From: Candidatus Vesicomyosocius sp. SY067_SCS001 | GTDB taxonomy: Bacteria > Pseudomonadota > Gammaproteobacteria > PS1 > Pseudothioglobaceae | Assembly: GCF_014706615.1 (NCBI RefSeq) | Contig: NZ_CP054877.1 | Location: forward strand, 434,001-498,000 | Length of the DNA: 64,000 nucleotides | Direction: 5' to 3' | Part shown: positions 45,480-50,228 of the stretch, piece by piece | Layout of the letters: every line of letters starts with the position of its first letter | How positions within the stretch are numbered: the first letter of the stretch is position 1 | Notes under the pieces: generated by a model | Databases searched by the model: none | What the model saw: the letters and a program-made list of their open reading frames with translations, nothing else | What the model was told of the DNA's origin: nothing | Made by a program: the position numbers and the translations under genes

Positions 45480-46448
45480 ATGACACAACATCGACACAAT
45501 TGGACACTAAAAGAAGTTGAAGCTTTATTTACATTGCCTTTTAATGATTTATTATTTCAAGCACATAGTATTCATAGAAAAAATTTTGATCCTAATCAAG
45601 TTCAAATTAGTTCATTGTTAAACATCAAAACTGGTGCCTGCCCTGAAGACTGTTTATACTGTTCGCAAAGTTCTAAATACGACACAGGCCTTGAACGTGA
45701 AAAATTAATGGAAATTGACTTGGTTCTTCAACAAGCTAAACAGGCGCAAAATAACGGTGCAACACGATTTTGTATGGGAGCTGCATGGAGAAATCCTACT
45801 GATAAGAGTCTAAACAAGGTCATACTAATGATACAGAGTGTAAAAGATATGGGTATGGAAACGTGTGTAACCTTAGGCATGTTAACCCAGAAACAAGCAT
45901 TCGTTTTAAAAGAAGCAGGTCTAGATTATTACAATCATAACATTGACACTTCAAAAGAGAACTACTCAAATGTTGTTACTACACGTAATTTCCAAGACCG
46001 CTTGAATACTTTAGAATCAGTACAAAATGCTAATATTCGTGTTTGTAGTGGTGGTATTATAGGATTGGGTGAAGATCAAACTGATCGCGCCTCTATGCTT
46101 AGGTCACTATCTAATTTAGCAATACATCCAGACAGTGTGCCACTTAATTTATTAGTGCCAATTCCAGGTACGCCGTTTGAAAACATTAAGCCACCAACAG
46201 AAAGTGAGTTTATACGTACCATTGCAGTAGCACGTATTATGATGCCAAAATCAGTTGTACGCTTATCAGCAGGTCGCACTAATATGGGAGATACTATGCA
46301 AGCACTTTGTTTTTTTGCAGGCGCTAATTCTATTTTTTATGGTGAGCAGTTACTCACTACCGACAATCCAAATACTAATAGTGACAAAGATTTGTTTGTA
46401 AGTCTAGGGATTAATCAGAAACAAGCAAATAATCTACAATCTGTTTAA
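45480..46448 (+). CDS. bioB: Biotin synthase
   Basis: 322 aa (E. coli 346). Radical SAM enzyme inserting sulfur into dethiobiotin. Cluster motif [10 protein letters not shown] (about residues 52-61), HNIDTS (about 154-159), [10 protein letters not shown] (about 188-197) and RLSAGR are present. The last 38 nt overlap the murG 3' end on the other strand. No other bio genes in the window. Confidence 0.95.
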
Positions 46449-47433
46449 CCGCATTAGGTTTGGCAATTTTTAATGCATTGCTAGACATTTGTTTAATTTG
46501 ATCTTTGTTAATATTAAGTAAAATTCCTTCTAGTAATTCAATTGTTAAATCTTTTTGCTCAATTAGTATACCAGCATTATTATCTGCCAAAATTTTAGCA
46601 TTATGGAATTGATGATTATCAATGGCGTTAGGTAGAGGGATTAAGATACTGGAGGTAGCTGATAGCATTAATTCTGAAACAGTCATTGCACCTGCTCTAC
46701 AAAGCACAATATCTGCCCAAGCGTAAGCACTTGCCATCTCTTGAATAAATGCAGTTACTTTTACTGTACTATTTTTGTACTGAGATTTAACCGTATCAGC
46801 ATGTAATTTTCCTGTTTGATGCCAAATATTAATATTAATATTAAGCTGTGTAACTATCTCATTAATCGGCTTTGAACCTAAAGAACCACCGATAATTAAT
46901 AAGTTTAATTTGTTATTATTTTGTTTTTCAATAGGATTGAATACAATTGGATTGCCAGAAGTAGTGGCATTTCTAATAAAAGTATCGTCAAATGCTTGAA
47001 AGGTTTTTGTGGCTATTTTGTTAAGTATTTTATTGGTTGTTCCTGGAATAGAGTTCTGTTCATGAATTACTAATGTAGTTTTAAACATCCAAGCTACTAA
47101 GCCACCAATACCTGAAGTAAACCCACCCATACCAAGTACAACATCAGGTTTAAATTTTAGAAAAATTTTTATCACTTGTAACGTAGCATAGCCCAGTAAA
47201 AATGGTGCTTTTATTAGGCTAATAACGTTCTTACCCCGTAATCCAACACTATTAACAGTGTGTAGTTTAATCTTATGTTTAGGTATAATATTGTTTTCCA
47301 TACCGATGTTTGATCCAAGCCATTGAATATTACTTGAATGCCTTTTAAGCTCGTTAGCAATAGCAAGTGCTGGGAATATATGTCCCCCAGTTCCCCCAGC
47401 CATAATGAGGATTTTTTTAGCTGTGTTAAACAC
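46411..47433 (-). CDS. murG: UDP-GlcNAc:lipid I N-acetylglucosaminyltransferase
   Basis: 340 aa (E. coli 355), GTG start. Makes lipid II on the cytoplasmic face of the inner membrane. GT-B motifs: [16 protein letters not shown] (about residues 11-26), [10 protein letters not shown] (about 180-189), [11 protein letters not shown] (about 240-250). The start sits in a 15-nt near-palindrome (CTGTGTTTAACACAG). ftsW immediately upstream is a pseudogene, so murG has lost its operon partner but is itself intact. Confidence 0.95.
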
Positions 47434-47435
47434 AG

Positions 47436-48480
47436 TGTTTTTGCTTAGAATATTTATAGTAATTTTCTATATCATTTCTAAGTAATATGAGAGAAACTAT
47501 CATATTTGATATTCACCTAACGAATAAGTTGTAAAGTAAGCCCTTTGGGTAGAACTAAGGATAGATTAATACTAAATTGTATACCTATATAAATACCAAA
47601 GGCTAACATAAGACTTATATTCACGATTATTTTTAAGTGTATTTTTTGGTAAATTTTAAAGCTCTAAGTATAATATAAGTAAAGGTAAACAATATATGTT
47701 TCTCCAAAGATAGTAGAAATCATATCAGTATGTAGTTCTGTAAATTTGGTATATTGTTAAATGTCATTACCAAAATCTAGTTTAACCACTCCTAGCAATA
47801 CTAGCTAATGTATGTTTAGTTTGCCCACTTTATTAGGACTTTGTTAAGCTAACTTTCTTTTTTGTCAAAAAGAAAGTTAGCTGTTAGACTCAATTAAGAA
47901 TTTGAAAAGGATAGTGATAACAATAGCAATAATATTTACACCAACTATGAATAATTGTTTTTAAATTAGTCACACCTCACACACCTGTGCCCAGTTAAAT
48001 AGTATAAGCAAATATAGAGGTAATAAAAGTCGCACATAAGTCTGATACTAGTAGTAGACCCCCAATAATGATAAGCGTTTTAATAAATCTTATATTGAAT
48101 TTTTTAAATCTTTTTCTTGTTTAACTAAAAATCCTACCATGAATAAAATTATTTCAAAAGACTGAAGTTTAAATAACATAAATTTATTACAAACACGTTT
48201 AACCTTTGACAGTTTTTTTCGATAAATTATAGGAAAAACACCAATCAGTAAGTATATCAATGTAATAATAAAAAATAATTTTTGTAAAAATACAAAGAAA
48301 ATTTTATTGTAATGTAACTAACACTTAAGCCCCTAAAATAATAAAAATAACTTATTTTATAAGATATCCATAACTAAAAGAATATCCGTTAGTATGTATA
48401 AAACATAGTATCCAAATAAAGATAAACAATGTTAAAACAGGAAAAAGTAGATTTTATCGATAATTAAACTATTCTTATCA
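47436..48480 (-). pseudogene. ftsW: ftsW pseudogene (septal SEDS peptidoglycan polymerase)
   Basis: The minus strand carries FtsW pieces in order, in shifting frames: TLFIFIWILCFIHTNGYSFS and SYGYLIK-stop-VIFIILGA (first helices); LLIGVFPIIYRKKLSKVKRV then FMLFKLQSFEIILFMVGFLV (family: R-W-I-x-L-G-x-x-x-L-Q-P-S-E-x-A-K); FIKTLIIIGGLLLVSDLCAT (E-P-D-F-G-A-T); VGVNIIAIVITILFKFL; LMLAFGIYIGIQFSINLSLV then LPKGLTLQLI (L-P-T-K-G-L-T-L-P-L-I-S-Y-G-G-S-S); and [13 protein letters not shown] near the murG start (L-L-L-R-x-D-Y-E). Multiple stops and frameshifts. Position directly upstream of murG is the ancestral ftsW-murG order. It is distinct from the intact rodA. Confidence 0.9.
47847..47882. repeat. 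16-bp perfect hairpin inside the ftsW pseudogene
   Basis: Arms 47847-47862 (AGCTAACTTTCTTTTT) and 47867-47882 pair exactly around TGTC. It lies within the decayed ftsW frame, between recognisable blocks, where an intact gene would not be expected to encode a long perfect palindrome. Confidence 0.85.
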
Positions 48481-48617
48481 AAGATAAGTTCCTAACAATT
48501 AATTATTTTATTGAATTATATTCACCAAGGTGAGATTTATAATTCTATTAGTTGGGCTTTTTTATTACTATTATGGGATAATATTCTTTTTTCGTTTGTA
48601 AAAATAAAAATAAGTTT

Positions 48618-50228
48618 ATGATTTCTACTGCCAATATTACTATGCAGTTTGGTGAAAAACCTTTATTTGAAAATATTTCTATTAAATTTCAGGACGGTAA
48701 TCGTTATGGTTTAATTGGTGCGAATGGCTGCGGTAAATCAACTTTTATGAGAATCTTAACAGGTGAACTTATTCCTAGTAATGGCACAGTTCATATTAGC
48801 GATGGAGAGCGTTTAGGTATTCTTCGCCAGGATCAATTTTCTTTTGAAAATTTTAGCGTAATTGATACTGTGATTATGGGACATCATGAGCTATGGATAA
48901 TTAAAAAAGAAAGAGATAGAATTTATGCCCTACCTGAAATGAGCGAAGAGGATGGTATAAAGGTTGCAGAGCTTGAAATGAAATTTTCAGAAATGGATGG
49001 TTATATGGCTGAATCTTCTGCTAGTGAATTATTATTAGGTTTAGATTTTCCAGAAGAGCAACATTATGGTTTAATGAATAAAATTGCACCAGGTTGGAAA
49101 TTACGTATTTTATTAGCTCAAGCATTATTTTTAGATCCAGATATTTTATTACTTGATGAACCTACAAATAATTTAGATATTGACTCAATCCGTTGGTTAG
49201 AAGATGTGTTAAAGGAACGAAAGGCAACAATGATAATTATCTCTCATGATAGACATTTTTTAAATGGTGTATGTACACATATGTCTGATTTAGACTATGG
49301 TGCACTTAGTACCTTTCCTGGCAATTACGATCATTTTATGATTGCGTCAACTGCTATTCAAGAAAAAATGCAAGCTGACAATGCTAAAAAAGAAGTTAAA
49401 ATTAAAAATCTAAAGCACTTTGTATCTCGCTTTTCAGCTAATGCCTCTAAATCTAAACAAGCTACTTCAAGGTTAAAACAATTAGATAAGATCACATTAG
49501 ATGATATTAAACCCTCTTCAAGAGTAAGTCCATATATTATATTTAACCAAGAAAAAAAGATACATAGAAATATATTAGAGGTTGAAAACCTATCTAAGAG
49601 CTTTAATCCCAAAGGAGATAATGAAAAGGATGGTAAGATTGAAGTTTTAAAAAATATTAACTTCTTGTTTGAAGCAGGTGATCGAATTGCGGTTATTGGC
49701 CAAAATGGTATTGGAAAAACTACGTTGTTACGAACTTTAGTTGGTGAAATAAAGCCTGACAAAGGTAAGATTAAGTGGAGTGAAAATATTAATATTGGTT
49801 ATTATGCACAAGACCATAGTAAAGAATTTGAAATTGATATGAGCGTACTTGATTGGATGAGTCAATTTAAAAGTGAAAAAGATGATATACAAGCAATGCG
49901 TGCAGTGCTAGGAAAAATGTTATTTGGTAAAAAAAATATTGGAAAAAGTGTTACAACACTTTCTGGTGGTGAAAAAGGCAGGATGTTATTTGGTAAACTC
50001 ATGCTACAGAAACCCAATATATTGGTAATGGATGAGCCTACCAATCATCTTGATATAGACTCAATTGAAGCACTTAATTTAGCATTGGATAATTATAAAG
50101 GTAGTTTAATATTCGTTAGTCATGATAGGGAGTTTGTTTCTTCACTTTCTACTAAGGTATTAGAACTTAAAAAAGATGGCATGCATTATTATTCTGGTAA
50201 TTATGAGGATTATTTAGTTAGTAAATAA
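48618..50228 (+). CDS. ybiT: ABC-F family ATPase (YbiT type)
   Basis: 536 aa with two ABC domains. Walker [10 protein letters not shown] (about residues 34-42) and GQNGIGKTT (about 361-369); the first-domain signature is the YbiT-type [14 protein letters not shown], the second [12 protein letters not shown] (about 450-461); Walker [12 protein letters not shown] and [15 protein letters not shown] proteins act on ribosomes; YbiT is one of the E. coli paralogues. No membrane domain, so not a transporter. Preceded by about 140 nt of spacer after the ftsW remnant. Confidence 0.93.

Follow-up and report, generated by a model that had tools for sequence, protein, structure and literature searches.

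Decay of ftsW within a block loss of septal division genes in a Vesicomyosocius clam symbiont that retains RodA and PBP2

Directly upstream of murG, at the position where relatives carry ftsW, the genome of this deep-sea vesicomyid clam symbiont has no open reading frame able to give an FtsW protein. What has become of the gene at this locus, and with what machinery might the cell still build a wall and divide? The genome (G000; complete, 1,032,764 bp) belongs to the Vesicomyosocius group, and the window analysed is the 64,000-nucleotide stretch G000:434001-498000 (Table 1). It was placed in a comparison of 12 genomes of the genus, four with an ftsW remnant and eight with an intact ftsW. The closest sisters are G001 (Ca. 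Vesicomyosocius okutanii, 1,022,154 bp; PMC1974822), G008 (CP072532, Ca. Vesicomyosocius sp. Agig_15_S12) and G005 (CP072535, Pext_18_S21); Ca. V. okutanii, of the same genus group, shares the remnant.

The initial annotation had proposed a decayed ftsW at 47436-48480, beside an intact murG. The locus was right, but its limits are better put at 47426-48485 on the minus strand, where a near full-length ftsW pseudogene is flanked by murG on one side and a divergent ABC-F gene on the other. A DNA profile was built from 12 intact ftsW genes and searched with nhmmer; it matched window positions 48458-47426 (minus strand) over model positions 28-1134 (E = 1.7e-103, 340 bits), and its sole further match in the 64 kb was rodA (E = 9e-12). 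The FtsW protein profile scored 70.8, 48.9 and 20.4 bits in the three frames of the remnant, and the RodA profile scored below 0, so the homology is specific to FtsW rather than RodA. Of 500 dinucleotide shuffles, none scored above 4.7 bits, and nhmmer matched none of them. The peptides quoted in the annotation are present and align with the intact FtsW of relatives: FMLFKLQSFEIILFMVGFLV pairs with FVLFKFQPSEMMKLVMILFMAGFLV, LLLVSDLCATF with LSLLEPDLGATF, and VLPKGLTLQLI with IPPKGFTLPLI. The gene order murG-ftsW-ABC-F, with ftsW directly upstream of murG, is the same as in genus members with an intact ftsW. The tblastn rows for FtsW in G000 and G001 matched RodA, and the DNA profile was used for the remnant in these two genomes. 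A second ftsW copy elsewhere was rejected, as rodA was the only PF01098 match in the complete genome.

Table 1. Features of the ftsW locus and of rodA (window coordinates)
Feature	Position	Strand	Evidence
ftsW pseudogene	47426..48485	-	nhmmer match; alignment with relatives' intact ftsW; neutral codon-position pattern
murG, intact, 340 aa, GTG start	46411..47433	-	TIGR01133 289 bits, cut-off 250; codon constraint
Former ftsW/murG overlap junction	47418..47436	-	Comparison with intact relatives
ABC-F ATPase gene, intact, divergent flank of the ftsW locus	48618..50228	+	
bioB, intact, conserved flank past murG	45480..46448	+	
rodA, intact, 386 aa frame, sole SEDS gene of the genome	20576..21736	-	PF01098 search; TIGR profiles; codon constraint

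Measured against the intact gene, the remnant has lost its start codon (ATG to ATC) and carries 13 in-frame stops and 23 frameshifting indels; the same count on the ftsW of three intact relatives gave zero lesions. It is thus a pseudogene and not a functional member of the FtsW family. Four stops, at codons 89, 98, 251 and 344, and several indels (-10, -23, -12 and +9 bp) are common to G000, G001, G005 and G008, which form one clade (support 1.0), and ftsW is intact at the same place in the eight other genus members. Between G000 and G008, substitutions in the remnant are spread evenly over codon positions 1, 2 and 3 (49/55/46), compared to 5/5/42 in murG; the corresponding numbers are 20/7/44 for rodA and 10/3/46 for glnA. 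The GC content is 23-25% in the remnants, compared to 33-36% in the intact copies of the genus. The shared stops and indels place the death of ftsW before the four lineages split, and the even codon-position differences point to drift since then. These comparisons show ftsW to be an old pseudogene that was already inactive in the ancestor common to at least four genomes of ~1.0 Mb and has drifted neutrally since. Homopolymer errors and transcriptional slippage can occur in AT-rich symbionts, and might in principle produce an artefact of sequencing or assembly, or a frame rescued by programmed frameshifting; the chance of this is negligible here, as the lesions are common to four assemblies and comprise, in this genome, 13 stops and deletions of 10 to 23 bp, the substitutions are even over codon positions, and the flanking genes are clean. 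The shared lesions and the neutral pattern refute both an assembly error and a rescued frame. At window positions 47849-47880, this genome alone has a perfect inverted repeat, CTAACTTTCTTTTT...AAAAAGAAAGTTAG, of which the sisters have an imperfect version; the perfect match would be explained if one arm had served as the template for the other.

In intact relatives, the ftsW stop overlaps the murG start (ATGTCTAA). In the four remnant genomes, a 9-bp insertion at this junction creates the perfect palindrome CTGTGTTTAACACAG, changes the MurG start from ATG to GTG and gives MurG a new N-terminus. The gene itself is intact in this genome, as had been annotated. The former overlap means that murG presumably relied on transcription through ftsW, and one might imagine that the remnant, of which ~1 kb persists in three of the four genomes, was kept because it acquired another function, for instance that of a murG leader or promoter. 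We consider this improbable: the remnant shows no constraint, 381 bp of it are missing from G001, and promoter-like sites are no more frequent than the shuffled expectation.

The decay extends to other septal genes. In the four-genome clade, ftsA is a remnant with lesions common to all four and a neutral pattern (matches to the FtsA model in these genomes are cross-matches of MreB and were excluded from the FtsA counts), ftsQ is a remnant or gone, and mtgA, which encodes a monofunctional glycosyltransferase, is a remnant. Deletion has left ~0.4 kb of ftsI scraps next to dnaG in this genome, so that FtsW and FtsI are both absent as functional genes. All eight genus members with an intact ftsW have an ftsI gene, frameshifted in one. 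We conclude from these gene remains that the loss of ftsW is one part of a block loss comprising ftsA, ftsQ, ftsI, ftsW and mtgA. Unlike the clade, G003 (1,160,782 bp), which belongs to the same genus group and which we take to be Ca. Ruthia magnifica, has ftsW, ftsI, ftsQ, ftsA and mtgA intact. G009 keeps ftsW, its ftsA and ftsI are each split in two frames and its mtgA is decayed (L122:7551-8713, G009:C1:320003-320846); the same loss may have begun there independently. Earlier work reported the absence of ftsL in V. okutanii (PMC1974822) and noted that an envelope region of 20 genes is lost and that the peptidoglycan pathways are reduced (PMC2642828, PMC7826175). A statement that ftsW or ftsI is lost in clam symbionts was not found in the literature searched, outside which lies the original V. 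okutanii genome paper.

An unusual mode of division had been proposed as a consequence of the loss of ftsW. The unusual mode stands, but ftsW is not its origin. FtsZ (PF00091) was not found in any of the 83 family genomes, this one included, and the same search was positive in 13 of 14 control genomes. Most family members keep ftsA, and the sampled relatives outside the four-genome clade keep two SEDS genes. As ftsZ is missing family-wide while most members keep ftsA, division without FtsZ long predates the loss of ftsW, and the proposed order is reversed. In E. coli, ftsZ sits between ftsA and lpxC; in G003, G004, G012 and G031, ftsA directly precedes lpxC with a short gap (junctions at L119:9683-9689, L123:6933-6963 and L125:8545-8559). 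This adjacency suggests that the family ancestor lost ftsZ by a precise deletion that left ftsA in place. Published work describes division without FtsZ in Ca. Thioglobus autotrophicus, a free-living relative (PMC6509183), and in both named clam symbionts (PMC4164004).

What remains for making a wall? The rodA gene is intact, as first annotated, and is under codon constraint; it scores 402.9 bits with the RodA equivalog profile TIGR02210, above its cut-off of 336.7, and 291.9 bits with the FtsW profile TIGR02614, below its cut-off of 337.5. Intact frames were found in this genome for RodA, PBP2, MreB, MreC, MreD, FtsK, MurA to MurG, Ddl and MraY. The transpeptidase search detected no class A PBP in any genus member; it returned FtsI and PBP2 only, and PBP2 only in this clade. 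No GT51 was found in the clade, and the only GT51 of the family is of monofunctional size. RodA and PBP2 act as polymerase and transpeptidase, respectively, according to established knowledge of their families. We infer that RodA is the sole glycan polymerase, and PBP2 the sole high-molecular-weight transpeptidase, detected in this genome. The lytic transglycosylase gene mltD is a long open frame in this genome and a pseudogene in G001 and G008 (L134, L132 versus L091:9055-10521).

Our preferred reading, to which we give a probability of roughly 0.6, is that ftsW decayed as part of the loss of the septal block and that RodA-PBP2, with MreBCD, may be left to build the wall for both growth and division. 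Without FtsZ, cells that had become intracellular and vertically inherited would no longer have needed the FtsA-FtsQ-FtsW-FtsI septal synthase. With no class A PBP, GT51, FtsW or FtsI, RodA alone would polymerise, and PBP2 alone cross-link, any remaining peptidoglycan, with MreBCD as guide and lipid II supplied by the intact pathway. This set probably makes a thin sacculus or a wall ring that would serve growth and division. For the final scission the membrane would have to be remodelled, a step in which FtsK and the host vacuole might help. The elongation pair and the wall itself would now be failing in one sister lineage.

The symbiont must divide in a non-standard way, for which a small number of other intracellular bacteria already offer examples. 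Among these, Wolbachia supergroup J comes closest to the resulting state (PMC10591338). Most members of Wolbachia supergroups B, C and D, like this genome, have no FtsW and FtsI and keep RodA and PBP2; supergroup J is also without FtsZ and keeps MreB, RodA, PBP2 and most lipid II genes (PMC10591338). The corresponding set is found here, with FtsZ, FtsW, FtsI, class A PBP and any other GT51 missing and MreB, RodA and PBP2 intact; RodA-PBP2 is the putative septal wall maker of this genome. Wolbachia belongs to the Alphaproteobacteria, however, and the losses are therefore independent. Unlike supergroup J, the clam symbiont has dead ftsW, ftsA and ftsQ genes that are still readable, keeps MreC and MreD, and has free-living family members already without FtsZ. 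Among these, Ca. Thioglobus autotrophicus (SUP05) is likewise FtsZ-less and keeps MreB (PMC6509183), but it is free-living, and the sampled family outside the clade keeps ftsW and mostly ftsA. Chlamydia also has no FtsZ and no class A PBP, and its division depends on MreB; it differs in keeping FtsW, FtsI, FtsQ, FtsL and FtsB beside RodA and PBP2 (PMC10591338).

The sister G005 complicates this picture. In its one assembly, frameshifts were found in the genes for RodA, PBP2 (mrdA), MreB, MreC, MreD, MraY, MurD, MurF, MurG and MltD (L093, L096, L043, L128, L032, L090), one to five per gene, several of them multi-base and most outside long homopolymers. Counts sorted by hand give hits in 10 of 15 wall genes, compared to 7 of 82 others (Fisher P = 3e-6). 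Of these seven, prfA and hemF are affected in the last few codons only, and fabI only close to the 5' end of an extended frame; the true background of lesions is therefore even lower. The annotated retention of lipid II synthesis thus holds for this genome, with its intact MurA to MurG, Ddl and MraY frames, but not for G005, where murG, mraY, murD and murF are frameshifted. With RodA, PBP2, MreB, MreC, MreD, MraY, MurD, MurF and MurG disrupted there, at least one member of the clade seems able to divide without the RodA-PBP2 system.

Published comparisons had already suggested that such symbionts may make no wall at all, the missing walls being argued by Newton 2008 (PMC2642828) and Ip 2020 (PMC7826175). 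On such a reading, division in the clade would depend on neither peptidoglycan nor a bacterial cytoskeleton: nearly wall-less cells would, like L-forms, split through an excess of membrane or through constriction by the host. The intact RodA-PBP2-Mur set of this genome would be residual and in the course of being lost. The skew of the G005 frameshifts towards wall genes, in that one assembly, makes this a serious proposal for the clade. RodA, PBP2, MreB, MreC, MreD, MraY, MurD, MurF and MurG are nevertheless intact in G000, G001 and G008; with the codon constraint on murG and rodA, this argues that the wall pathway was under selection until recently in these three genomes, and we regard a wall-less division in this clade as the distinctly less probable outcome. 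As for a supply of the missing division parts by the host, the clam Archivesica marissinica has 28 bacterial genes, and this explanation was set aside because they have no homology to the symbiont (PMC7826175).

Returning to wall synthesis by RodA-PBP2, the distribution of genes among the genomes suggests an order of losses. Tentatively, and at somewhat less than even odds, the clade may be a natural knock-out series, in which FtsZ was lost first with FtsA, FtsQ, FtsW and FtsI long kept, then the septal module on one branch, and then MreB, RodA, PBP2 and lipid II synthesis in one sister, whose division would run without cytoskeleton or wall and with FtsK alone left of the proteins tested. The kind of state reached is already known; what is useful is this case, its readable remnants and the order of losses. 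It would provide an independent gammaproteobacterial example of RodA-PBP2 as the sole wall-polymerising pair, with the losses ordered from FtsZ to the FtsW-FtsI-FtsQ-FtsA module and, in one lineage, to MreB-RodA-PBP2 and lipid II. The FtsZ-less relatives that have FtsA, FtsW and FtsI pose the testable question of what these proteins do without FtsZ, and the wall pathway retained here puts the dispute over the symbiont wall within reach of a direct test.
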